A DNA stretch of 25,957 nucleotides from the IMG/VR virus record IMGVR_UViG_3300038423_000020, positions 1 to 25,957 of that record; one strand, given 5' to 3'. The notes beneath the pieces are model-generated. The model was not told where the DNA came from and ran no database searches. It saw only the letters and a program-made list of their open reading frames with translations. Both the position numbers and the translations under genes were made by a program. This DNA comes from a virus. Below are positions 5,016 to 25,499 of this stretch, one piece after another (within the stretch, counting starts at the first letter, position 1; each line of letters opens with the position of its first letter).

Positions 5016-5294
5016 TTATTTCTTCTCTTCTGGCTTCTTCTCTTCTGGTGTAGTGCAACCCACGTGATCTCCAAGAGCAGCAAGAGTCTGCTTTCGTGGC
5101 TTGCAAACAGAATCGTTCCACATCTTTGTGAAACTGTTTATGGCAGCTTGGTCCTCCTTAAGTCGGTTACCAAGCTGAATGTACTGCTGAAATCGAGCCG
5201 CTTCGTCACGTACAAACTGTACCTCGGCCGGTACTTTCTCTGTATTGTGACAGGCTGGCATGACAGCCAGTGCAAGAATGATTAGTTTTTTCAT
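5016..5294 (-). CDS. Probable small lipoprotein following secreted fibre
   Basis: Ninety-two residues with an N-terminal signal and a lipobox-like V-M-P-A-C at residues 11-15 (MKKLIILALAVMPACHNTEK), imperfect because Pro and Met are unusual there. The rest is helical and charged, with two more cysteines and a repeated acidic/basic tail E-E-K-K-P-E-E-K-K. The start overlaps the fibre stop as ATGA, so production is coupled to the fibre. A lipoprotein partner could hold the exported fibre in the envelope, or act as an outer-membrane spanin; both are inferences. Confidence 0.6.
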   Translation of the reverse strand: MKKLIILALAVMPACHNTEKVPAEVQFVRDEAARFQQYIQLGNRLKEDQAAINSFTKMWNDSVCKPRKQTLAALGDHVGCTTPEEKKPEEKK

Positions 5295-7945
5295 AAGAGC
5301 CGTTCAAGCGTGGCGTATATATTGTAGTTTACAGTTCCTGCAACTGTAGTAGAAATTTGAATGGCAGCCCCATTTGAGTAGATGTTATATGGCTGCCCAG
5401 AAAAGGAATTTGAGCCGTTGGGTAAGTAATTGAAGTTGTAGGAATTGGCTCCTCTGGTGTCTGTCCACATCACGGTTTGATACACTGTCCCAGTTCCGCT
5501 GTTGAGCGTCATATAGACAGTAACCCTGTAAAAACCAACCGGGCAGGTTGTTCCGCCACATTGAAGACTGGTTGCACCAAGGCTGCTTGTTAGCCCGGTT
5601 GCAGTGTAAATGGCATATATTGGGGGCACACCCGCGCCTGCTGTTGCCAGATTATTATAATAGCTAATGTAATATTGAAGGCCAAGTGCTCCATTGTGGT
5701 TAATCCAAAATTCCTCCACGCCACCTGGGTAATTATAGACATTAAACAGGTCTTGTGAGCCACCCTGGTAGCCATAAAGCCCCAAAACACTCTCGTCCTG
5801 GTAAGCAGCTGTTATACTTGTAAAGCGGCCCACAGTTAATTGACCTGTTACACTAACAGTTGATAGTGCATTATTGAATGACACTCCCCCACTGAAAGTG
5901 TTAGCTCCAGCAGCAGTCCAGCCACCAGCAGTAGTCAAGCAACTCGGACAAGAGATTGTGCCAGACGTAGTTATAGTCCCACCTGAAATTGGCCCGCTTG
6001 TCGCAATGCTGTAAACTGTACCACCAGCAGATCCAGAAGCAACACAAATACCAGCAACAAAAGAAGAACAACCAGAAGCTGTTGCACCAGAATAAATAGT
6101 AGATCCAACTTGAATATCAATACCTGGTGTTGTGCTTGCTGTGGCACTAAAGTAAAAAGCACTTGCTGTTGCTCCCGTACCGGCATAAGCTCCAATCAGA
6201 GCATTTGTAGCTGTGGATATTGATACATAACCATTAGAACCTTGCCAGGTGTTAACAGAAGATCCTGAGGTATAAGTGTTAGAGGCGGTTAGAAGGGGTG
6301 TATTAGACAGGCTAGGAACAGATTGCACACTGCAAGCAGTTACAAGCCCTTTGGCATTAAGAGTTACCACTGGATAGTGTGTTGTATCTCCGCAAGCTCC
6401 TGTGTTTGTATTTACAGTTGCAAGTGTAAAATTAGGTTGTGAGAAAGTTAAATCTCCACCAGCAGTAAAACCTCCAAATGCTCCGCCATTGTTATACTGC
6501 AATTGCCCAGAAGATCCACCTGGAGAACCACTTCCAGTTATAGCTACAGCACTCTGAGTTGTTACAAGACCCTTTCCATTAGTAGTTATCTCACAAACAT
6601 GAGTTGCATCTCCACAAGAGCCAGGCCCGGAGTTTACAGTGGCTAAAGTTCCCACACCAGAAGTAGCCAATGTAAAATCACCTGAGACTGTTAAACCAGC
6701 AAAAGATCCAGTTAGATTATATTGAATTTGGCCATTGGTTCCACCTGGGGTAGTACCACCCCCACCAGCAATACCAACAGAAGCCTGTGCTGTGACTAAA
6801 CCTTTTGCATTTGTGGTAATTTGACAGCTGTGGGTAGAATCTCCGCAAGTTCCATAAGTAGTGCTTGCAACAGCCAGGCTTAAAACACCTGTCGAAGTAA
6901 CAAGAGTAGCATCCCCAGACATTGTGAAGCCACCGAAGGAACCTGCATTATTCCACTCAACTTGACCACTTGTGCCCCCTGGTGTTCCAGAGCCACCAGA
7001 TCCACAACCGGAACCAGTACAAGTGCCATTGATAATAACATTATTGAAAGTCTCTGTTCCCCCAACAGTCTGACCTCCAGTTGTTGTCAGACAACTAGGG
7101 CAAGAAAAAGCCCCAGCAGTGTCAACGATAGGGCTGGCTCCAGAGATGGCTGCAAGTACTCGAGCAGTTGTGTGATATAAATTTGTAACTCCTTCTGGAA
7201 CTGCATCAGAATTCAAAGTCTGCCAGGTTTTATCTCCTCTGTAGTATTGAGCACTTGTGCCAGCAGCAACAGCTAATTCTACAGGAGGTATGCTGAATAC
7301 TCCAGTAGTTGCATTATAAACAAGTTGGCCAGATGCTGAGAATGTAGCCAAGGCTCTGGAAGACGTAAAGTACAGATTAGATCCTTCAGGTATAATACTT
7401 GTATTTAAAGTCTGCCAGCTTTCATCCCCACGGAAATACTGAGAGGTTGTGCCGGCTGTAATCAAAGGCTGATAACTTGGTATGCCAGTGATATGACCAC
7501 CACCCCAAGTTAAATACAGCCAAGAAGGATCTGTATAAACTACACCAGAAACTAAGCAGGTTGTGCAGGAAATAGCACCATTACTGCCTACGTAAATTGG
7601 TGTTACACCAGAAAACTGGGCAATTGCTCGTGCAGGAGTAAAATATAAGTTTCCATTCTCAGGTACGACAGAGGTATCAAGAGTTACAAAAGTCTTATCA
7701 CCCCTGTAATACTGATAGATTGTTCCTGCACTAATTGGGGGCTGATAACTAGGGCAGCTAGCGGTAGTTGTATTACCATTAGCATCAGTGCAAATTTCAA
7801 GTCCAGCTGTGTTGGTAATAGAGCCAGCCAATTGAAACCGAGTGCTGTTGCCTTGCTTAGCCGACGACTGAACATTATTAACTGTAATCTGCTGTGTTTG
7901 TGCAGTTGCACAAACAAGAAGAAAGAAGAGAAATGCCTTTTTCAT
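5291..7945 (-). CDS. Large secreted repeat-rich fibre protein
   Basis: An 884-residue protein with a Sec signal (MKKAFLFFLLVCATAQ). The TTG one codon earlier is less likely because GGGAGG is better spaced to the ATG at 7945. Three repeats near residues 79-115, 170-205 and 235-270 follow Y-(Y/F)-R-G-D-x-(S/T)-(W/F)-x-T-L...P-E-G...N-L-Y-x-T...R-(A/V). Three more near 323-393, 402-470 and 477-545 follow G-G-(T/S)-(S/N)-G-Q-x-x-x-N...G-(S/A)-F-(G/A)-G-(F/L)-T, then C-G-D-(S/A/T)-T-H and N-x-K-G-L-V-T. Several C-x-x-C pairs (SCPSC) could form disulphides after export. The C-terminal ~200 residues form a glycine/asparagine/tyrosine-rich region without repeats, a candidate receptor-binding tip. A signal peptide on such a fibre is unusual. 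Confidence 0.75.
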   Translation of the reverse strand: MKKAFLFFLLVCATAQTQQITVNNVQSSAKQGNSTRFQLAGSITNTAGLEICTDANGNTTTASCPSYQPPISAGTIYQYYRGDKTFVTLDTSVVPENGNLYFTPARAIAQFSGVTPIYVGSNGAISCTTCLVSGVVYTDPSWLYLTWGGGHITGIPSYQPLITAGTTSQYFRGDESWQTLNTSIIPEGSNLYFTSSRALATFSASGQLVYNATTGVFSIPPVELAVAAGTSAQYYRGDKTWQTLNSDAVPEGVTNLYHTTARVLAAISGASPIVDTAGAFSCPSCLTTTGGQTVGGTETFNNVIINGTCTGSGCGSGGSGTPGGTSGQVEWNNAGSFGGFTMSGDATLVTSTGVLSLAVASTTYGTCGDSTHSCQITTNAKGLVTAQASVGIAGGGGTTPGGTNGQIQYNLTGSFAGLTVSGDFTLATSGVGTLATVNSGPGSCGDATHVCEITTNGKGLVTTQSAVAITGSGSPGGSSGQLQYNNGGAFGGFTAGGDLTFSQPNFTLATVNTNTGACGDTTHYPVVTLNAKGLVTACSVQSVPSLSNTPLLTASNTYTSGSSVNTWQGSNGYVSISTATNALIGAYAGTGATASAFYFSATASTTPGIDIQVGSTIYSGATASGCSSFVAGICVASGSAGGTVYSIATSGPISGGTITTSGTISCPSCLTTAGGWTAAGANTFSGGVSFNNALSTVSVTGQLTVGRFTSITAAYQDESVLGLYGYQGGSQDLFNVYNYPGGVEEFWINHNGALGLQYYISYYNNLATAGAGVPPIYAIYTATGLTSSLGATSLQCGGTTCPVGFYRVTVYMTLNSGTGTVYQTVMWTDTRGANSYNFNYLPNGSNSFSGQPYNIYSNGAAIQISTTVAGTVNYNIYATLERLL

Positions 7946-9084
7946 CAAACTGCCTCCCTAATGTCATCTTGTGGGCCTGGAGTCAGAACATTGCCACCAC
8001 CATCTATAAAAGAGATTAGTGTATCTGTGACAAGAGACTGATTGTAGCCAACACCAAGAAATTGGTTTACACCATTCCAAATGATGTACTGAGGAACAAA
8101 AGAGAATACAAATAGGCTATTAACACCATCTATAGGTGTTATAGGTGCAACTTGATGAGCACCAATAACACCTAAAAGGGTATCACCTGAACCAGGTGTA
8201 AGAGTATTGCCAAGAACGTCAACAAGAGTTATTAGTGTGTTACCATTAAAAGCTATAGTTTTATAACCTACATTGACATACTGATTTATGCCATTCCAAG
8301 AGATCCAACGGGGTACGTAAGAGAAAGCAAAAATAGTGATTATACCATCTGGTGGTGTAACTGTAGGCACCCAACGGCTAACTACACCTGCAACTGGCAC
8401 GCCTGGCACGCCGTACACAGGAACTGATGCACTGCTTGAAGTTCCTGTCCCAGACTTTGGTGACCTGTATCCCCGACGCCTTGTTGGGCGCTGGTCATTA
8501 GTAACTTGACTCTGAACTAGCTTATAGAGATTCTTTTCTGCAAGATCCAAAATGCTTTTGTTATCTTTACCTATTGCAGTAAAAGCAAGTGCAACAATTC
8601 TAGGTCCAATATAGTTTTCAGCAAATATGCAACCTAGCTGGTCTGTTAGCTTTTGAGGCACTATTAAAGCACCATCATAGCGTAGTATAACTGCTCTATC
8701 AATTGTTGCACCTAGAAGAGTTATAGTCTGACCAATCCAGGCCCAGTACGTAAGCTCTGTGTCTTGATCTATAAAAGGTATAAATGTGGTCTTTATCATG
8801 TCCTCGAAGTTGTCAGGATCATCACCAACTTGCCCTTCCATCATGCTAATAGGGTTTATAATGTTATCTGGCTGACTTGCACCAAGAGTTGTGGCACCTG
8901 CAGGCACAATGATTATAGGTGATTGAACCTTCATTACTCCAGTACGATTCAGCTCAAGCCGCTGAACCAATTCACTATGGGCAATCTGTAAAAAAGACAT
9001 TAGTACAGGATCTGTCCAGGTCGTCCCATTTATATCATTCAGATACGCCCTGGCAAACTTGATTGCTTGCAAAGCTTGCGCCAT
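7945..9084 (-). CDS. Adaptor paralogue 2 fused to two tandem beta domains
   Basis: A 379-residue protein; I start at the ATG at 9084 (TAATG overlap, GGGAG eight bases upstream) rather than a TTG five codons earlier. Residues ~1-200 repeat the architecture of the other adaptor (ARAYLNDINGTTWTDPVLMS; TYWAWIGQTITLLGATIDRA; ILDLAEKNLYKLVQ). A basic linker (RPTRRRGYRSPK) and a Ser/Val/Pro spacer lead to two copies of a ~62-residue beta domain at ~242-303 and ~314-375. Both copies carry P-x-D-G, F-x-F-S-x-V-P-x-x-I-x-W-N-G-x-N-Q, V-G-Y and N-x-L-T-P-G. So an adaptor has gained a carbohydrate-binding- or fibre-like tail. The stop overlaps the next start as TGATG. Confidence 0.7.
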   Translation of the reverse strand: MAQALQAIKFARAYLNDINGTTWTDPVLMSFLQIAHSELVQRLELNRTGVMKVQSPIIIVPAGATTLGASQPDNIINPISMMEGQVGDDPDNFEDMIKTTFIPFIDQDTELTYWAWIGQTITLLGATIDRAVILRYDGALIVPQKLTDQLGCIFAENYIGPRIVALAFTAIGKDNKSILDLAEKNLYKLVQSQVTNDQRPTRRRGYRSPKSGTGTSSSASVPVYGVPGVPVAGVVSRWVPTVTPPDGIITIFAFSYVPRWISWNGINQYVNVGYKTIAFNGNTLITLVDVLGNTLTPGSGDTLLGVIGAHQVAPITPIDGVNSLFVFSFVPQYIIWNGVNQFLGVGYNQSLVTDTLISFIDGGGNVLTPGPQDDIREAV

Positions 9085-12963: not shown

Positions 12964-14196
12964 TTAACTTCCTAGAATGTCAATGTCAGACATTTTACTG
13001 TAGTCTACTTTGTCAGCGGAAGTTCGTCCGCTGCCGTTACTACCCCCTGTCCGACCTGAGTTATTTTCCTTGGGTGCAGAGCGAGTCTGCTCCCGCTTGT
13101 TATCCGCTGCTTTGATCTTAGTTCCAAGCATTGCAGCACTTACCTTAGAACAAGCATCAGGAATCAACGACTTTGCACGTGCAAGGTACGTGGAGATTAT
13201 CTTGCTTTCATCATCGCTGGTGTATCCATTAGCTCTTGCTCGCTTCCAACGAGCAGCCATCACACCCATGTGTCCTTTATCGCTTTCAAGTTGCTTCATG
13301 ATGCGTTTTATAACTTCTTGAGCACCTTGCTTGCGAAGAAAGGGACTAAAAACTCGATTAGGGTCAAAATTTGTGTCCTTGAACACAAGAGTTTCAAGAT
13401 TCTTAGTAACAGAATCTTGAACTTTTCCTGCACTGGCCCGAAAGTTTGTTGCAGAAGTCTGATCTTTCTGATCCTTTAATCTTTTCTGTTCTGCACTAAG
13501 TTCAACAACCTTAGCTACAGACTTTTGATTCTTAGCTACAGCCTCACCATCAGAGCCAAATAAGTATTCAGCTAGAACAAGGCCAGCATTTCTTGTGTTC
13601 TCATCTTTGTCTGCAAAGAGAGTACGGACAAGGTTTTGAAAAATTGGATTTACTGCTTGCACATATAAATCCTGGCTCTTCTTATATAGAGTCGGCAGGA
13701 AAGAAAGCGATAACAACTCAAGAGCTTTTGTGTCAGCTTTCTCAACACTGTCAAGCAAAGGGGCTGGATCACCAGCCAGCGTGCTTTCTGAAAGCACATT
13801 AAAAGCCTCATTGTCTTCAAAAGCTTCTTTAGCATCCTCAACAGTAGGAAAGAGTTTTGTAAACTCAAGTTCTCTAAAGTAAGCCTCTTTGAGTGTTGGA
13901 AAGTCTTTAAAGAGATCAGGATACTTAGCTTTGAGCTCCTTTACAGTTGGACGGTCAAAAGGAATTTGCGCAGCAGCTTCGGGTTCCTCCTCTGAAGGCT
14001 CTTCCTCTTCATCAGTCCCTTCCTTATCTTCTTTAACAGGAAGAGTTACTTTGATCTCTTCATCAGTTTCCTCTACAATAGGCTCATCAACTTGGCCTTC
14101 CTCAAGAAGAGTAACATCTTCATTGTATTTTGGACCATCTGCAGTTGCAGCAGGGCTGGGAACAACGGAACTAGAAACAGTTGCACTGTCAGGCAT
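12964..14196 (-). CDS. Scaffolding protein
   Basis: A 410-residue, highly charged protein just before the major capsid gene. The N-terminal ~75 residues are acidic (EEGQVDEPIVEETDEEIKV, then TDEEEEPSEEEPEAAA), the middle is helical, and a Lys/Gln-rich coiled coil (VELSAEQKRLKDQKDQ) leads to a basic C-terminal third (MAARWKRARANGY, DNKREQTRSAPK) with a Gly/Ser/Asn linker (GRTGGSNGSGRT) and a small C-terminal peptide (YSKMSDIDILGS). Acidic head plus basic capsid-binding tail is the usual architecture of scaffolds that fill the prohead and exit before packaging. The ATG has GGAG ten bases upstream. Confidence 0.8.
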   Translation of the reverse strand: MPDSATVSSSVVPSPAATADGPKYNEDVTLLEEGQVDEPIVEETDEEIKVTLPVKEDKEGTDEEEEPSEEEPEAAAQIPFDRPTVKELKAKYPDLFKDFPTLKEAYFRELEFTKLFPTVEDAKEAFEDNEAFNVLSESTLAGDPAPLLDSVEKADTKALELLSLSFLPTLYKKSQDLYVQAVNPIFQNLVRTLFADKDENTRNAGLVLAEYLFGSDGEAVAKNQKSVAKVVELSAEQKRLKDQKDQTSATNFRASAGKVQDSVTKNLETLVFKDTNFDPNRVFSPFLRKQGAQEVIKRIMKQLESDKGHMGVMAARWKRARANGYTSDDESKIISTYLARAKSLIPDACSKVSAAMLGTKIKAADNKREQTRSAPKENNSGRTGGSNGSGRTSADKVDYSKMSDIDILGS

Positions 14197-15454
14197 ACTT
14201 AAGCGTCTCCTTGATCATTTTAGGTAAAACTTCCGCTAGGTCTGTTCTATACTGCTTGTCAGGAACTTGCAACTTCTCAAGAATCTTATAAGGCTCTTCC
14301 AGACACTCCTCTGGAGTGTCACCAAGACCCATTGCGCAGGCTATAACTCCAGTTCCTCCAGAGTGCACAAGCGTACCATCTTGTGAACAAACCTCAAAGA
14401 AATACAAAGACTCAGAGTGCTTTTCATAGTTCTGAATAGGAACACCTTTATTGGGTGAAAACTTTTCTGAGTCTTGGTTGGGCTGGGGTTCAGCAGGATA
14501 AGGTGGTATAGTTATTCTAATTCCACCAGCGTCCTTTTTGAAAAATTCAGCCTCAGTTAACTGTCCAGATGCCAATCCATGAAAAAACTCACCAAAATCA
14601 CTGCTGAGTAAGGTCAGCAATGTAGGTGTTGCATCATAGCCAAATCTAGGTGTCCACTCTAAGCCATAAACACCAGACTCATTAACTACTGCATTGAGAT
14701 CAATTTGGCCAGCATAATTCTCACTAGCACAAAGAAACTTAATCTTTGCAACTCCTGCGTCAACTATTTTACTAGACTCCTCACAGGTCCAAGTTATATT
14801 CCCCGAACAGCCTGTGCTTGGCCCTAGGTCATCATTCATTGACTTCTTGACCTCAACAGTGTGATTTGGAGGCCACATAAATCCGTTACCATTACAGAAA
14901 AACTCAGAGGAAACTACGCAGCCTTCTATAAAGTCCTGCAGTATAAAGGACTCAATTTCCTTGTTAAAATGCTGCTCAACAAAGCTTAAATACGCAAGTA
15001 GCTCCTCTGAGTCTTTTGATACGTAGGTTAGCTTACAGGGCATAGTCCCTGACGGTTTAAAGACCAAGCGTTTGTTCGACTTCCGAACATACTCCATGCC
15101 TGCTTTAAAGTCTGTGAACCCTTTAAAACCTGGAATTTTAATGCCTGCTTTTTGCATAGCATCAAAACCAAACTGTCTGTCATGCTCAAGTTTATCTGCA
15201 AACTCAGAGGCACCGTAAACAAGCAAACCTTGCCGCTTATACATATCAGCAATCTTACCATTGCCTGACATATCAAAGATTATAACCGTGTCTTTATCTA
15301 CAAAGCTATCTGGTTCAACCTTAGGCAGTAGACCGTCAAAGACAGTAGAGTATAATTTATCTTTAATAAACAGTCCTACTTCATTTCCCTCAAGCTCAAT
15401 TCTTTTAAGAATCTGAGCTCCTTCTCCGCACTGTGAAAAAAGTAAAAACTTCAT
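14189..15454 (-). CDS. ATP-grasp ligase, PurD-like, inside the head operon
   Basis: A 421-residue enzyme of the ATP-grasp fold that would couple a carboxylate to an amine through an acyl-phosphate. The N-terminal Rossmann-like domain starts MKFLLFSQCGEGAQILKRI, as in phosphoribosylamine-glycine ligase. The ATP-grasp core shows Lys133 (RLVFKPSG), Glu177 (ILQDFIEGC), Asp252 (GQIDLNAVV) and Glu266 with Arg270 (GLEWTPRFGYDA). True PurD normally has E-F-N at the last site; here it is E-W-T, so the third metal ligand Asn is replaced and the substrate may differ. No other purine genes are nearby; the gene ends 8 bases inside the scaffold start, so it is coupled to head assembly. The ATG lacks a strong ribosome site close by. 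Peptide tagging, virion modification or nucleotide synthesis are all possible roles. Confidence 0.8.
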   Translation of the reverse strand: MKFLLFSQCGEGAQILKRIELEGNEVGLFIKDKLYSTVFDGLLPKVEPDSFVDKDTVIIFDMSGNGKIADMYKRQGLLVYGASEFADKLEHDRQFGFDAMQKAGIKIPGFKGFTDFKAGMEYVRKSNKRLVFKPSGTMPCKLTYVSKDSEELLAYLSFVEQHFNKEIESFILQDFIEGCVVSSEFFCNGNGFMWPPNHTVEVKKSMNDDLGPSTGCSGNITWTCEESSKIVDAGVAKIKFLCASENYAGQIDLNAVVNESGVYGLEWTPRFGYDATPTLLTLLSSDFGEFFHGLASGQLTEAEFFKKDAGGIRITIPPYPAEPQPNQDSEKFSPNKGVPIQNYEKHSESLYFFEVCSQDGTLVHSGGTGVIACAMGLGDTPEECLEEPYKILEKLQVPDKQYRTDLAEVLPKMIKETLKYA

Positions 15455-15458
15455 TTTA

Positions 15459-15722
15459 TCACACTACACCCTTCCCTGTGCGCCCGAAGACGCTGGCGAC
15501 GCTGCCACAGGCCACCCAACCCCGAACGCCGCCAGTGGTGGATGTGAGACAAGAGCCGGTCAGGTTGGGATTTCCCAAGCTTGGTTCCTTGTTGAAATTG
15601 AGCCATAGAAAATTCGCGTTTATCAACGAGCGGACGATCGGAAAGGTCGTATCCGGGATCGTCTGCACCTGTCCCCACGCCGAAGCGCAGGAGAGCAGAG
15701 CAAGGATGATAAGGTGTTTCAT
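15459..15722 (-). pseudogene. Truncated secreted fibre gene (N-terminal part only)
   Basis: Eighty-seven residues beginning with a signal peptide (MKHLIILALLSCASAWGQ). I choose the ATG at 15722 because it overlaps the previous stop (ATGA) and starts the signal; a longer frame upstream is a shadow. The mature part (TIPDTTFPIVRSLINANFLW, then LNFNKEPSLGNPNLTGSCLT) leads to V-A-S-V-F-G-R-T-G, a motif that in many phage fibres is followed by a long beta-repeat region (SVFGRTGAVV...DYT). Here it runs straight into K-G-V-V and stop. So it looks like the head of a long fibre whose body has been lost at the junction with the ATP-grasp gene. It may still make a short secreted peptide. Confidence 0.6.
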
Positions 15723-16108
15723 TTCTTTTGCGCTGCCCGCTGTTCCGCATCGGCCAGCGATTGGAAGCACGCGCCGAACATCTTCTGACTCGCTACAATG
15801 TTGGCCTGCATAGCTGCGATCTGCTGGTCTTTCTGAGCCACGGCCTGCTGGAGTTGTGTCACCTGATCCTTCAGCATTCCAGCGCACGCCACTGGGTCTC
15901 CTGTGATGCTCAAAGTACCATCTGGCTTGATGGTGCAAGCTGGCGGGGGATCTTTCACCACTAAGGACGCGTCTACTTTCTGTATATCATCCCCATGCGC
16001 GCCACTTGACAGATCGACCTTCTTGACCGGCTCTTGCGCAGACAACCCAATCCAAGCAACCGTGGCGCAAAAGATGAGACCGATAATTCTGAGTGCGATG
16101 GTTTTCAT
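15719..16108 (-). CDS. Membrane-anchored periplasmic coiled-coil protein
   Basis: A 129-residue protein with an N-terminal hydrophobic segment (MKTIALRIIGLIFCATVAWI, then GLSAQ), which may be a signal anchor or a cleavable signal. A loop with two cysteines follows, then a coiled coil from about residue 78 (LKDQVTQLQQAVAQKDQQIA) to the end (ADAEQRAAQKK). The layout, one membrane segment plus a periplasmic coiled coil, is like phage inner-membrane spanins, but no outer-membrane spanin is nested in it, so this is only one possibility. The stop overlaps the next start as ATGA. Confidence 0.6.
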   Translation of the reverse strand: MKTIALRIIGLIFCATVAWIGLSAQEPVKKVDLSSGAHGDDIQKVDASLVVKDPPPACTIKPDGTLSITGDPVACAGMLKDQVTQLQQAVAQKDQQIAAMQANIVASQKMFGACFQSLADAEQRAAQKK

Positions 16109-16111
16109 GGC

Positions 16112-16549
16112 CTATTGCACCTGCTTTTTGATCGGCAGTGGTCCTATGTGAATCACAGCCGGATCTACTTGAGCATCTGGCGCAGGCGCAGAGTTCAGCA
16201 CAGCTTGCTTAACTGCTGTTACTTGCGCTGCTTGTGCCGTGATAACCTGCTGCACGCTGTCGGGCGGAAAGTTTGCAACCGCTCCCACAAAAAACAGGTA
16301 GATGTTCTGGAAGATCGCATCCCCAATTCCTGCATACTTAGGAGTCTGCAAAGTTGTACCATCCGTGTTCGTTGTGGACACCTGATTCGCTGGTGCCGCA
16401 ACGTAATTCGAGATGGCCGTCTGCACGTCCGCTGATACTGGAATGCAGATCTGCTGGTCGGGTTGTGTGCTGTCGGGCTGGTAGCAGAGTTGTCCGTCTG
16501 CCCATGCGCTGATGCTGAGAATCAATGAGAGAAGAATTGTCTTTTTCAT
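16112..16549 (-). CDS. Secreted hypothetical protein
   Basis: A 145-residue protein with a clear Sec signal (MKKTILLSLILSISAWADG, likely cleaved after AWA). The mature part begins QLCYQPDSTQPDQQICIPVS with a Cys pair that could form a disulphide in the periplasm, continues with an alanine/glutamine-rich helical region (VQQVITAQAAQVTAVKQAVL) containing a hydrophobic stretch (GDAIFQNIYLFFVGAVANF) that may sit in or on a membrane, and ends with a short Pro-containing tail. AAGGAA lies eight bases before the ATG. No family recognised; it sits between the secreted fibre and the anchored coiled-coil protein and probably works with them. Confidence 0.6.
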   Translation of the reverse strand: MKKTILLSLILSISAWADGQLCYQPDSTQPDQQICIPVSADVQTAISNYVAAPANQVSTTNTDGTTLQTPKYAGIGDAIFQNIYLFFVGAVANFPPDSVQQVITAQAAQVTAVKQAVLNSAPAPDAQVDPAVIHIGPLPIKKQVQ

Positions 16550-16561
16550 GGCTGTGTTTCC

Positions 16562-18340
16562 TTAAATTCCGTCTACTATGTAAGTCCCCGTGGTCAAGCT
16601 GCAATGCACAAGTGCGAACACTGCACCGCCACCTGTCAACGCTACCCCGATAGCTGGCGCTACCGCATCACTCACTGCTGCTCTCCATGCTGTTCCTGTG
16701 GTGGCTGTGCAGGTTTTCAGATTGGTAGTAAGCACAGGAGTTTGCGCCGTGGCTGTCATTATCATTGATCCAGCTTTGCTCCCTTGCGCTCCCGTTCCTA
16801 CGTCTATGACGCCTGCGGAGTCCCGAGAGAAGGCGGTATCTTGTGGAGCGCCGGAAGGGGTCGTAGACGAAGACCAACCAATTGCCCATAGCGACCCTGT
16901 ATATACCCCAGCATTTCCCTGAGATATTGCAAGCCTTGCTACTTGCGTGCCTCCTCCGCTGTTTGTTGCAAGGTCTAGTTCTGTGTTGGTTGTTCCAAAA
17001 TACCCTCCGATTACGTTTCCACCAACATCTACCCCAAACTGTTTCACTCCCGCTATCTGCCAATTCGCAAAATCCGCCGTACTCCCCGCTGCTGCATTGA
17101 TCCCCAAGTGCGTACCAGCGGCTGCACCTTGGAAGTAGCCAGACGTTGCTCCATCCCACGGTCCTGACCCTATGGAGAGGGTGGCGTAGTTGGGGGTGGC
17201 GGTGGGGGCAACGCCGATGTGGAGCTTGGATACCGGTCCCGTCGTCCCGATGCCGACGTTGCCGTTTGTTGAATTTACCGTTAGTGCCGTTAAAGGTGTC
17301 CCTTGTGCCACATCCAAATTAAAATTATGATTTGTAGCATCCTGTCTAATTGCCCAATACCCGCCGTTTGACGCATATGCGACAGGCTGCACACCAGCAC
17401 TTCCGGCAAAAATTGTATTTGAATCAGGAGTCTTGTTTTGGATACTCCCATTTCCATCTATAGAAAGACGCGAATTACTAAATCCATTTGTGTAAAAATT
17501 TAAGGGTTGTGCTTGGTTTGTCCCAATATTCATTGACCCGTCATTGTTGGCTTCGAAAGAAAAGGCAATGTTTGTTTTACTATATGTATCGTTATAAATT
17601 GCCAAGGCGTTCGGATTTGCGTTGGCCTGATGAATTGAAATGACATTGCTGTTATTGGCAACACTACTCGGAGCATAAATTTCCAAAATCCCATCTGGAC
17701 TCGTCGTCCCGATGCCGACGTTGCCGTTTGGTAGCATCGACAACCCCAACACATCCCCTCCACTCGGAGGATGGTAGAACAGCCCATAGTACGAAGAGCC
17801 TGTGGTGGTACCCTGCACGGGGACAACACAGGAACGGAAGCCTACAGGGGTCGAAAGCCCCGTCCCTGTGGCCCAGCCTTGGCCGATCTGCTCGAAACAG
17901 GGCGACCACTGCTGCGCTCCGTTGGCTGCTGGCGTGGTGTTGGTGAGAGTTAGGCCATCGGTGGGTGTGGTGCCGAGGGTGGGATAGGAAAGAGTAGCAG
18001 GCACGGCCAGCGTCGGGCTTGGGTACGTCCCTGCGAGTGATCCTCCAGCCGCACCAGTGGGAGGCCCACCCGATCCCGGTCCAACCAGCGTCCAGTCTCC
18101 TGCTACTGAACACGCTCCCGTCGTATGGCAAAGATACTGCGAAGTCCCGGTAACGCAGACCTGGCCTGCCGTGCCTGCCGTGGGGGGATTGGTGGCGCAA
18201 GCAGCTGGTATAGAGGAGTTTGGAATACAGCTCTTTTGTCCATTCCCAATAGGTCCTAGGTGACCGTTAGGTCCGCACTGCGCGCACAGATTCAGTGCGC
18301 CAAACGAACAAAGAGCAAGAAAAAATAGTGCTTTACGCAT
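16562..18340 (-). CDS. Secreted fibre-like or tailspike-like protein
   Basis: A 592-residue protein with a Sec signal (MRKALFFLALCSFGALNLCA, cleavage before QCG likely). A Gly/Pro-rich segment (ATNPPTAGTAGQVCVTG, then PGSGGPPTGAAGGSLAGTYP) resembles the neck of phage fibres, and two copies of a beta-turn motif, NGNVGIGTTSP and NGNVGIGTTGP (residues ~205-215 and ~358-368), are typical of trimeric beta-structured spike stems. The C-terminal ~70 residues form a separate Thr/Ala/Val-rich beta domain (TGTAWRAAVSDAVAPAIGVA). The ATG at 18340 has GGGAAAG upstream. A phage virion fibre would normally lack an export signal, so the protein may be sent to the envelope. It could be a receptor-binding protein, a surface-exclusion factor or a lysogenic conversion protein. 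Confidence 0.7.
   Translation of the reverse strand: MRKALFFLALCSFGALNLCAQCGPNGHLGPIGNGQKSCIPNSSIPAACATNPPTAGTAGQVCVTGTSQYLCHTTGACSVAGDWTLVGPGSGGPPTGAAGGSLAGTYPSPTLAVPATLSYPTLGTTPTDGLTLTNTTPAANGAQQWSPCFEQIGQGWATGTGLSTPVGFRSCVVPVQGTTTGSSYYGLFYHPPSGGDVLGLSMLPNGNVGIGTTSPDGILEIYAPSSVANNSNVISIHQANANPNALAIYNDTYSKTNIAFSFEANNDGSMNIGTNQAQPLNFYTNGFSNSRLSIDGNGSIQNKTPDSNTIFAGSAGVQPVAYASNGGYWAIRQDATNHNFNLDVAQGTPLTALTVNSTNGNVGIGTTGPVSKLHIGVAPTATPNYATLSIGSGPWDGATSGYFQGAAAGTHLGINAAAGSTADFANWQIAGVKQFGVDVGGNVIGGYFGTTNTELDLATNSGGGTQVARLAISQGNAGVYTGSLWAIGWSSSTTPSGAPQDTAFSRDSAGVIDVGTGAQGSKAGSMIMTATAQTPVLTTNLKTCTATTGTAWRAAVSDAVAPAIGVALTGGGAVFALVHCSLTTGTYIVDGI
17240..17730. repeat. 29-bp exact direct repeat (17240-17268 and 17702-17730)
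   Basis: An identical 29-base segment containing CGTCGTCCCGATGCCGACG occurs twice, 462 bases apart, inside the fibre gene; it encodes the two N-G-N-V-G-I-G-T-T turns. Exact identity at DNA level, not just protein level, suggests recent duplication or gene conversion, and could recombine to delete or expand the intervening stem. Confidence 0.8.
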
Positions 18341-22828: not shown

Positions 22829-23005
22829 TTACTCCTTTTTCTTTCTCTTACTTACAAGAGCCTTTGCAAACTTGTGTCTCTTCTTGGCTGGCGTAGCATC
22901 TATAAACTCTCTTGCTACAGCCTTGCTAGGCCCAGCCCCTCCAGTTATAGAGCTGTGAGCAATTCCCTGCATGAGACCATATTGTGCCCTGCTTTTTACA
23001 GGCAT
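22829..23005 (-). CDS. Small basic phage protein (58 residues)
   Basis: A 58-codon gene with an ideal ribosome site, GGAGG followed by AACT and ATG. Its start overlaps the stop of the homing endonuclease by 10 bases. The product begins MPVKSRAQYGLMQGIAHSS and has a conserved-looking segment GGAGPSKAVAREFIDATP, ending in a strongly basic tail (KALVSKRKKKE). From memory, short proteins of the pattern MPVKS..QYR.MQ...G...GPS..VA.EFI..TP occur widely in tailed phages, usually annotated as hypothetical. The basic tail suggests nucleic acid contact, which is inference only. It was probably directly adjacent to the gene at 23519-23851 before the endonuclease arrived. Confidence 0.75.
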   Translation of the reverse strand: MPVKSRAQYGLMQGIAHSSITGGAGPSKAVAREFIDATPAKKRHKFAKALVSKRKKKE

Positions 23006-23538
23006 AGTTCCTCCGCAATTAGATTCTCTGTAATGTAAGAGCGTTGCTCGTCACACAACAATTGCATCAAAGTGGGACTAAATCTTGTCCCTTTTAAAGA
23101 GCAAATCTTACATCTTATCCTAGTGTGACCTTGATAAATAAAGCTTTTTATGTTACTGCCTATAATATGATGGCCACGTCTACATACATCTCCCTCTCCA
23201 TGCCAACCCTTTCCAGGAATGTGAGACTTCCACAAATTTACTATAAATTTAATTCTTTCCTTCCTACGCTCCCCCATCAATGTGTAAATAGTAAGCATCC
23301 ACTCAATAGCCAACCTTCCCCATATACGTGTAATATAGAAAGGTTGCTTATTGTTCATGACCTCACTAACCATATACTTACCATTAGACATAAGCAAGGC
23401 AGCTCTTTCAACTATATCTTTATCTTTCATTCCCAGCTTTATTCCTGGGGCTGACCCATTAGCAATAACACTAAAAGATCCTTCACCATCTAACAAACCT
23501 GCCAACCACGCAATGTCTCTAGCTGACTTGGCTGGCAT
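22996..23538 (-). CDS. Free-standing LAGLIDADG homing endonuclease with C-terminal zinc-binding motif
   Basis: A 180-residue protein with a single LAGLIDADG-type motif at residues 11-22 (WLAGLLDGEGSF), carrying the acidic residue that ligates metal at the active site. A helix-rich segment follows (WGRLAIEWMLTIYTLMG, then ERRKERI), typical of the second half of such a domain. One motif implies action as a homodimer. The C-terminal part has C-R-R-G-H...R-C-K-I-C, a likely zinc knuckle for DNA contact. Such enzymes cut an allele lacking the gene so that repair copies it in; free-standing versions are common beside phage terminase genes. The gene overlaps its neighbours by 20 bases upstream and 10 downstream, so it is translationally embedded in the operon. 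No intron ends are apparent in terL. Confidence 0.85.
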   Translation of the reverse strand: MPAKSARDIAWLAGLLDGEGSFSVIANGSAPGIKLGMKDKDIVERAALLMSNGKYMVSEVMNNKQPFYITRIWGRLAIEWMLTIYTLMGERRKERIKFIVNLWKSHIPGKGWHGEGDVCRRGHHIIGSNIKSFIYQGHTRIRCKICSLKGTRFSPTLMQLLCDEQRSYITENLIAEELCL

Positions 23539-23851
23539 CTTCTTCTCCTTGCTCTGCTGCTGTTAAACCCTCTGTTGTGTAAGGGAGATCCAAAAGACCA
23601 GAATGCTCAGGAATTCCAGTAAGTTCAGAAACTTTTGGTTTGTGTATACGCTCAAGCCTGGCTTTCCTTTGATACCAAGGCATCCTCCCAAGCGGCTGCA
23701 TCTTAGAAGGAATAGTAACTACAGAGACCTCTTCACGAGGCATAAGATGGCCAGCCTGAAGGAGAAGTTCAGTCAAAGCTGCATTCTCCGCCCTGAGAGA
23801 ATCAATGATCTCTAGTAATCGAGCTGTCAAATTAAACTCAGTAGTTGGCAT
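23519..23851 (-). CDS. Hypothetical small coiled-coil phage protein
   Basis: About 110 residues of unknown function, overlapping the end of terL. I place the start at the ATG at 23851, which has GGAGG ten bases upstream; a GTG at 23857 with four-base spacing is the alternative and would add two residues. The N-terminal third (LLEIIDSLRAENAALTELLL) has heptad-like leucine and isoleucine spacing and probably forms a short coiled coil. A basic stretch follows (WYQRKARLERIHK), then an acidic tail (EQGEEDAS). The position after terL and the composition suggest a packaging or head accessory protein, but I do not recognise the family. The stop codon overlaps the start of the downstream homing endonuclease by 20 bases. 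Confidence 0.6.
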   Translation of the reverse strand: MPTTEFNLTARLLEIIDSLRAENAALTELLLQAGHLMPREEVSVVTIPSKMQPLGRMPWYQRKARLERIHKPKVSELTGIPEHSGLLDLPYTTEGLTAAEQGEEDASQVS

Positions 23852-25499
23852 AAACACCAGGCCTCCGATGAAATCTGCGATGGCCGTGCTGAGTCTTTAC
23901 AGCACGAGCATCAAGGCTATTCATACGCATATAGAACTGATTTATATTTCCAGTTCGTTCGTATGTCGAACAAACCTCAGCAACTTCCGCTGCTGACTTC
24001 GCCTCAGACATGCCTCCATCAAGATAGTTTTGGCACGCAGAGACTCCATACCTTGTTTCATCATAAGGGTCATCTCCATCAAACTCTGCCACGTCTTCCG
24101 GTCTATCTTTATCGTATACGCACAGAGGAAGGGTCTCTCTAGTCTTTTCGCAGCACTCAAAAATCTGAAATTGAGGCAGAAGCGTTTCTTCTGGTTCAGG
24201 CTGGAAGAGTTTGCAGTATTCTTCATAAGCATCTGGCCCATTCATTCGGCGAATCTTATTAGCCAGCTCCGCGTCAAATCCGGTAAGTGGTGTATAACGA
24301 GCAGGCCTGGATCGCCAACGGAGAAGTTCTTGTAAGAGCAACTTTCCACCAACCCTGTCATTATAGGCTTTTCTGGGGTGCTTTCCAAAAACCTTGGCAA
24401 ACTGCTCTGCAATAGAGGAAGGATCGCCACGGTCTTGCCAGGCTGAAGGGTCCATTACAAGGTCTGTGTAAACTTCATTTCCACACAGCCTTCGGATGTC
24501 ACTGGCCCAAGTTGAGATTTTGGTTTTCTTGCAGGTGTACTCACGGTATTTGTAGATTTTGGCGGGGTATTGGGCGGAGGGGACTGGATTGATAGCATAC
24601 CAGCCACATACCGTCATAGCTGCATATCCCCAGTCTATAGACATCAACTTAGGCCAGTAACTTGGAATTGTGAACTCTTTAATGACATGCCTTGCACAAG
24701 AAGGCTCATCTGGAAATGGCTGTTCTCTCCAATCCTCAAAAACCTGGCCAGAGAAAGACCACCAGTCTCCGTCAGCCTTAGCAGCGCGTTCGGCTAAAGG
24801 CAAGCGGTTCAGACGATTAATGTAGTCTGGGTCATTTGCCATCAGATAAGTGTTATCTGTGGCTTTGGAGGGAATGTAAATGCGGAAAGAAGCTTTTCCG
24901 CGGCGGGTTTCGCGCAATACTACATTGCCTAATCTATTAGGCTGGACAAATCTTGTTCTAAAGTAGGAGTGACCAATGTTACCAGGATTTGTGCCTGCCC
25001 TAACAATTGCAGGAAGGTCGGGACTGGAGGATCGACAACGGGAGAAGGTGACATATTCATACTGGAAGGGGTCAAAGCTGGTGGCTTCGTCAAAGGCAAT
25101 GACGTTGTACTCTGAGGTGTCATACTTCCTTACGTCCTCTACGTGTTCACAGTGCCCGAACTGGACAATAGCACCAGACTTGTTTGTCCATCGCTTTTTC
25201 TGTTCTTGATAGGGGAGGAAATCAAAGGATTCATAGGGTGGTAAATTCCCAGTGCCTTTTGTCCTCGGCACAACCTCTCCATCGAGCTCCGGGAAAGTTC
25301 GACGAAGAAAGAGCATTTTAAATCTGGGATTTGTATAAAGAGGCTTGCCATTCTTGTCCTTCTTTACAAATGGTATAGAGAGAAGAGCGTCAGTCTTGCC
25401 ACCGCCAGCCGCTCCCCCATACAGAGCTTCAAAAATCTCGTCGGGAAGGCTTAGAAAGTCAGCTTGGCGTTGTGTGGGTGACCAAGATTGTACTGGCAT
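23838..25499 (-). CDS. terL: Terminase large subunit (DNA packaging ATPase and nuclease)
   Basis: A 553-residue packaging motor that translocates phage DNA into the prohead and cuts it. The N-terminal ATPase domain shows a Walker A loop at residues 28-36 (GGAAGGGKT), a Walker B strand at 133-139 (VIAFDEA, with catalytic Glu138) and a coupling motif near 167-173 (RAGTNPG). The C-terminal RNase H-like nuclease of the Terminase_6 type shows an acidic strand at 287-291 (SIDWG, Asp289), a second Asp at 350 (LVMDPSAW) and late acidic residues around 477-480 (DDPYDETRYG). All core motifs are present and the length is usual for the family, so the protein looks intact. The ATG at 25499 has only a weak AGG-type ribosome site and lies nine bases after a stem-loop. 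The 3' end overlaps the next gene by about 14 bases. Confidence 0.95.
   Translation of the reverse strand: MPVQSWSPTQRQADFLSLPDEIFEALYGGAAGGGKTDALLSIPFVKKDKNGKPLYTNPRFKMLFLRRTFPELDGEVVPRTKGTGNLPPYESFDFLPYQEQKKRWTNKSGAIVQFGHCEHVEDVRKYDTSEYNVIAFDEATSFDPFQYEYVTFSRCRSSSPDLPAIVRAGTNPGNIGHSYFRTRFVQPNRLGNVVLRETRRGKASFRIYIPSKATDNTYLMANDPDYINRLNRLPLAERAAKADGDWWSFSGQVFEDWREQPFPDEPSCARHVIKEFTIPSYWPKLMSIDWGYAAMTVCGWYAINPVPSAQYPAKIYKYREYTCKKTKISTWASDIRRLCGNEVYTDLVMDPSAWQDRGDPSSIAEQFAKVFGKHPRKAYNDRVGGKLLLQELLRWRSRPARYTPLTGFDAELANKIRRMNGPDAYEEYCKLFQPEPEETLLPQFQIFECCEKTRETLPLCVYDKDRPEDVAEFDGDDPYDETRYGVSACQNYLDGGMSEAKSAAEVAEVCSTYERTGNINQFYMRMNSLDARAVKTQHGHRRFHRRPGVYANY

Follow-up and report, generated by a model that had tools for sequence, protein, structure and literature searches.

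The DNA analysed here, referred to as the window, makes up an entire IMG/VR record (25,957 bases) and is probably a fragment of a phage genome. Among its genes is one for a PurD-like ATP-grasp ligase that starts with ATG and runs into the presumed scaffold gene (Table 1). An earlier reading made from the letters alone (the sequence-only reading) had placed this gene correctly and left its strand unstated; it lies on the minus strand, and the plus-strand frame of the same interval is full of stops. The observation that the ligase stop falls inside the scaffold start was also accurate, the stop codon (14191-14189) being located 8 nt within the scaffold ORF.

Table 1. Positions of the genes and ORFs discussed, in the window and in two contigs that carry P125.
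Record	Feature	Position	Strand	Basis
Window	PurD-like ATP-grasp ligase (E-x-T family), 421 aa	14189-15454	minus	profiles, model, tree, conservation
Window	Presumed scaffold, 410 aa	12964-14196	minus	position and make-up
Window	Presumed major capsid protein, 427 aa	11671-12954	minus	position only
Window	Presumed portal, 777 aa	18580-20913	minus	position after terminase
Window	Terminase large subunit	23838-25499	minus	phrog_979, E 2.8e-30
Window	592-aa fibre-like protein, signal-peptide-like N-terminus	16562-18340	minus	by eye; variable portal-ligase interval
Window	145-aa ORF, signal-peptide-like start	16112-16549	minus	variable interval
Window	129-aa ORF	15719-16108	minus	variable interval
Window	Short ORF (MKHLIILALLSCASAWGQ...), directly upstream of ligase	15459-15722	minus	start by eye within ORF 15459-15938
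Window	LAGLIDADG homing-endonuclease-like ORF	22996-23538	minus	
Window	Possible GNAT acetyltransferase	2351-2716	minus	
Window	ORF with signal-peptide-like start	5291-7948	minus	by eye
Window	ORF with signal-peptide-like start	5016-5294	minus	by eye
L131	P125	9283-9738	minus	alignment A8
L276	P125	11283-11663		alignment A8

For the presumed portal and major capsid protein, searches with PHROG, Pfam and PDB profiles gave neither confirmation nor contradiction, and the predicted structure of the latter (pLDDT 37) is unusable for identification. The presumed capsid gene is the best conserved head gene among the sister phages (81-84%), and the presumed portal family has an invariant CxxC...CxxC insertion resembling a zinc ribbon (window residues about 196-235). 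The presumed scaffold has an acidic N-terminus and a basic C-terminus, its gene lies directly upstream of the capsid gene, and it has no match in Pfam, PHROG or PDB profile searches. In a search for a host, 297 genomes from the phylum of an acidobacterial genome (G009) yielded one weak partial match to the capsid family.

Some further features of these phages are recorded here as side observations. Starts resembling Sec signal peptides, which are unusual for phage fibres, were seen by eye on tail-fibre-like and other virion-module proteins, both in the window (Table 1) and in relatives (L423 10646-12094, a tail fibre by PHROGs, and L126 9317-13683). A LAGLIDADG homing-endonuclease-like ORF is present downstream of the terminase gene. 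A possible GNAT acetyltransferase follows the gp10-like gene in the window, where it has no Pfam match, and in L002 (3900-4346); its equivalent in the metagenomic phage ct2os315 matches a PHROG acetyltransferase, and some phages of clade B (see below) have a cupin-like ORF at the same position.

The AlphaFold model of the ligase (pLDDT 92.4) shows the full N-A-B-C domain fold of PurD, the GAR synthetase (EC 6.3.4.13). In a VIA-align comparison with the PDB, GAR synthetases took the first 13 places, with Z from 36.8 to 30.8, led by 2yw2 (Z 36.8, 394 residues aligned) and followed by PurT and PurK at about 26, with RimK absent from the top 50 structure matches listed. The sequence-nearest solved structures were likewise all GAR synthetases, with about 20% identity in structural alignments. 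By profile the protein scored 42.6 bits with GARS_A (cut-off 27), 27.1 bits with GARS_C (cut-off 34.8) and 102.4 bits with TIGR00877 purD (E 2.4e-29), where the equivalog cut-off is 288. Membership of the ATP-grasp superfamily is indicated by the GARS_A score, the model fold and the conservation of K133, D252 and E266. The core lysine and acidic ligands noticed earlier are indeed there as Lys133 and Glu266, with Asp252 as an additional acidic residue where PurD has Tyr, and the usual Asn of the last metal site is replaced, the site reading E-W-T at residues 266-268.

What the ligase shares with PurD is the whole fold, the ATP-grasp lysines, the Glu of the last metal site, the TG loop and the R-x-D of the C domain; the signature residues of PurD are not shared. 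In place of the PS00184 signature, R-[LF]-G-D-P-E-x-[EQIM], the window ligase has RFGYDATP, and in place of the GGREHA loop (G-x-G-G-R-E-H in 9/9 PurD rows) it has CGEGAQ. These departures extend to the family, where the PurD Asp at position 273 is missing throughout, the last metal site is E-x-T in all 191 rows, as against E-x-N in all nine PurD rows, and Asp252 replaces the PurD Tyr in 190 of the 191. Relatives score 74-123 bits with TIGR00877, also under the cut-off. The sequence-only reading had taken the change from Asn to Thr as a pointer to a role in head assembly. However, the change is common to 69/69 cellular members tested, and because it runs through the whole family it is an old family trait and no sign of tagging. 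PurK has E-x-A, so active ATP-grasp enzymes can carry a residue other than Asn at this site. The ligase also differs from PurD in its company, since no purine gene was seen among the subset of window ORFs scanned, in agreement with what had been noted before. The PS00184 definition used here was taken from a 2011 study in which two extra PurD-like proteins of haloarchaea without the signature were judged not to be GAR synthetases (PMC3261824). These proteins, Haloarcula rrnAC0307 and Halorubrum Hlac_1553, resemble the ligase in being PurD-like while lacking GARS_N and the aspartate of R-[LF]-G-D-P-E, a likeness drawn from their description in that study rather than from alignment, but they are cellular and have no phage link.

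Members of the E-x-T family occur in phage contigs by the hundreds and in bacteria and archaea in at least 565 stretches, the cellular relatives being 30-34% identical among the best 80 of these stretches. As a single query the window enzyme had no match among viral contigs, and alignment queries were required to reach its relatives in IMG/VR; an alignment of the window's own clade gave 70 loci and alignment A1 gave 251 relatives. In GenBank phages, a clear relative of the virion type is present only in ct2os315 (MW202796), as an unannotated gene with 26% identity over the whole length, which has 49 close relatives in IMG/VR. No close relative was found in PHROGs, PADLOC or BFVD. GenBank phage genes annotated as purD were set aside, as they look like mislabelled bacterial contigs in which purH adjoins purD. 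In the IQ-TREE phylogeny, PurD was split from the E-x-T family with 100/100 support and the family formed three groups, namely A with the window, its sisters, L123 and L126 (a phage-like contig binned in a Sulfuriferula MAG), B with the ct2os315-like phages, and C with the cellular members; all three were retained by FastTree with more rows. A true PurD above the cut-off is also present in 8 of 12 genomes that hold the cellular paralogue. With signature, cut-off and tree all against PurD, the earlier suggestion that the ligase is not a purine enzyme is very probably right.

The cellular paralogue adjoins GNAT genes in several unrelated genomes (L130, L150, L154, L158, L159), and other genomes (L189 and L198; L139) have it beside a gene for a PGM1-type peptide ligase or one resembling L-amino-acid ligase. 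Neighbours of these kinds come from few genomes, too few for a pathway assignment.

Conservation within the family is high at the presumed active site, with K133, E201, K203, E266, T268, R270, R403 and D405 found in 191/191 rows and D252 in all but one. The second catalytic lysine stands one position further on in the window's sublineage (K141 for K140), and not all clade-A phages conserve it. The median dN/dS in close pairs was 0.043 for clade A and 0.089 for clade B. Because the catalytic residues are near-invariant and the gene is under purifying selection, the product looks like an active enzyme other than GAR synthetase.

The ligase gene has a virion-module context in all phage lineages. 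In 13/13 contigs of the window's sublineage its ORF overlaps that of the scaffold by 8-16 nt, while the distance from the portal gene varies from 317 to 7340 bp. The strictness of the overlap against this variation indicates that the adjacency to the scaffold, which might have been accidental, is not. Between portal and scaffold the cargo varies, and fibre-like proteins whose starts resemble signal peptides are also encoded there; in the carrier L293 an extra HAD-like ORF lies between ligase and scaffold. L123 has the ligase between terminase and portal, its portal, scaffold and capsid being confirmed by PHROGs; a GIY-YIG homing-endonuclease-like ORF, recognised by eye, lies just upstream of the ligase in this contig (9300-10013). 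Elsewhere in clade A, and also in clade B, large putative ejection proteins are followed by the ligase and then by fibre genes. Recurrence of homologues beside scaffolds in related phages, which the sequence-only reading had proposed to check, is seen in the window's sublineage but not in most relatives, where the gene lies between ejection and fibre genes. Since the phages with the gene beside the scaffold branch from within clade A, the tree suggests that the ejection/fibre position is likely the older one. No neighbouring structural protein common to all lineages was found.

Phages with the same capsid family offer a comparison of heads with and without the enzyme. The family scan gave 313 contigs, of which the best 80 were examined; a scaffold gene is present in 80/80, and the ligase in 19, always between portal and scaffold. 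No ligase occupies this site in 56 of the best 80, each with at least 4.5 kb of upstream sequence. Searching the non-carrier records from end to end located none elsewhere, either with a protein query (0/30) or with a profile query (0/23, with 3/3 positive controls found), and 14/14 carriers have one copy. On the capsid tree the ligase occurs in two subclades with patchy absence, for example in L284 and L351. Because the enzyme is missing from phages whose capsid, scaffold and portal are homologous, it is, as far as gene content tells, dispensable for head assembly. The role in head assembly proposed by the sequence-only reading loses its ground on this account, and also because the place beside the scaffold is a derived one in this family.

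Comparing 11 carrier with 10 non-carrier phages, we found a carrier-linked protein family of about 125 aa, here termed P125, in seven of the carriers and none of the non-carriers (Fisher p 0.004, kinship ignored). P125 adjoins the ligase in many clade-A phages, lies just upstream of it in the clade-B phage L102, and stands beside the cellular ligase gene in a Micrarchaeota contig (L131). A scan for P125 only, blind to the ligase, reached at least 331 viral contigs; some archaeal genomes hold the family too. Where the P125 ORF was called, an ATP-grasp gene was present at 57 of 71 loci and was the next gene at 42, often with overlapping ORFs, as against 0/61 control loci, which belong to another phage family and span 6 kb instead of 10 kb. 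P125 had no Pfam match above cut-off, weak PHROG matches, none in GenBank phages and nothing notable in the PDB, and it was not found in the window, itself a fragment record. Its invariant residues are RYxTxGD, HExxE, FD, PG, PY and H. The HExxE...H pattern may bind a metal, and from this one could guess at hydrolysis and at a ligase-hydrolase pair.

Many of the P125-linked ATP-grasp genes fall into another group of phage genes, divergent from the first, so that the P125 link spans two ATP-grasp groups. The second group has Asp for Glu266 and Ser for Asp252, and given these changes its chemistry may differ. Its loci include L425, L438, L458, L484, L502 and others, and a protein of 750-850 aa, possibly a portal, is often encoded upstream of the gene; two members tested gave no useful sequence match in the PDB.

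The reading we favour, with moderate confidence, is that the product is a carboxylate-amine (amide) ligase, catalytically competent and from a family of PurD paralogues, which does not make GAR and whose gene is carried as late accessory cargo. By analogy with PurD-fold enzymes, the N, A and C domains would enclose a carboxylate in the cleft between them, ATP would phosphorylate it, and attack of an amine on the acyl-phosphate would give an amide, a chemistry that we infer because fold and conservation argue for it. The substrates would most likely be small molecules or a small peptide, for which the PurD architecture argues, and the context in the virion operon argues that the enzyme would be expressed late with this operon, as accessory cargo. 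In many phages, P125 not being seen within the window, the ligase would work together with P125. As to the target, which is a guess, the fibre and ejection neighbours and the absence from same-capsid phages make capsid assembly a less likely site of action for the product than the host surface, a metabolite or some accessory part of the virion. We also consider, as a tentative extension, a widespread two-gene phage system in virion operons, consisting of an ATP-grasp ligase (PurD-like or of the second group) and P125, that might modify a component of the virion or the host surface by adding, and perhaps trimming, a small amine, amino acid or peptide.

The strict scaffold overlap is a point against the favoured reading, as it fits tight co-expression with head proteins. 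It would speak instead for the ligation of an amino acid or amine onto capsid, scaffold or another virion protein during assembly, and so would the L123 gene among confirmed head genes and the position of other relatives within the ejection-protein/fibre block. Protein-modifying ATP-grasp enzymes are known, so the substrate may be a protein, of the virion or of the host. Such tagging is nevertheless unlikely, considering that most phages with homologous head proteins do without the ligase, that its place beside the scaffold is derived, that its fold is that of small-molecule ligases, and that no structural neighbour common to the lineages was found. We likewise regard as rather improbable an enzyme that is packaged or ejected, or that acts late on the host envelope or metabolites, e.g., as a block to superinfection or in altering a surface polymer. 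In most relatives the gene follows large putative ejection proteins directly and has tail fibres after it, as this would predict, and for amidoligase and amidotransferase genes of other phages a modification of the cell wall against superinfection has been suggested (PMC10580990); however, the other phages hold such genes in the early module (PMC3890496), and the ligase has no PADLOC match.

The two remaining readings carry little weight beside the favoured amide ligase. An auxiliary role in purine synthesis, with the ligase as a true GAR synthetase, would explain the full-length PurD fold and the E-value of the PurD profile, but is very improbable, as the ligase fails at the equivalog cut-off, PS00184, GGREHA and E-x-N alike, is set apart from PurD in the tree, has a cellular paralogue coexisting with true PurD in most of the cellular genomes compared, and has no purine gene nearby among the ORFs scanned. 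Least credible of all is a non-catalytic structural relic, which the position among structural genes might suggest, but which near-invariant catalytic residues over 191 rows and strong purifying selection speak against. DNA base modification was considered and rejected, as no neighbour gene of that kind is present.

Among known phage enzymes, the ATP-grasp, amidoligase and amidotransferase genes of the LUZ24-like and the OM43 phages are comparable as phage-borne formers of amide bonds. The UFV-P2 ATP-grasp protein differs in having 291 aa and in being encoded alongside Amidoligase_2 and GATase as part of the early module, whereas the window ligase has 421 aa, the PurD fold and a place in the virion module; neither Amidoligase_2 nor GATase was found among the subset of ORFs scanned in this partial record. 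The R2K-type ligases of jumbo phages are similar in that peptide modification by a phage ATP-grasp enzyme is predicted for them (PMC7824862), but belong to a separate ATP-grasp subfamily. We found no description of the E-x-T family or of P125 in the open-access texts searched, although an earlier mention in the 2009 amidoligase survey (Iyer et al.) is possible. The ligase represents a common phage class that is missing as a named family from PHROGs, GenBank phage annotation and BFVD, and the cellular sister family of bacteria and archaea can easily be mistaken for PurD. The pairing with P125, together with the occurrence of carrier and non-carrier phages within one capsid family, offers a direct route to the target of ligation.
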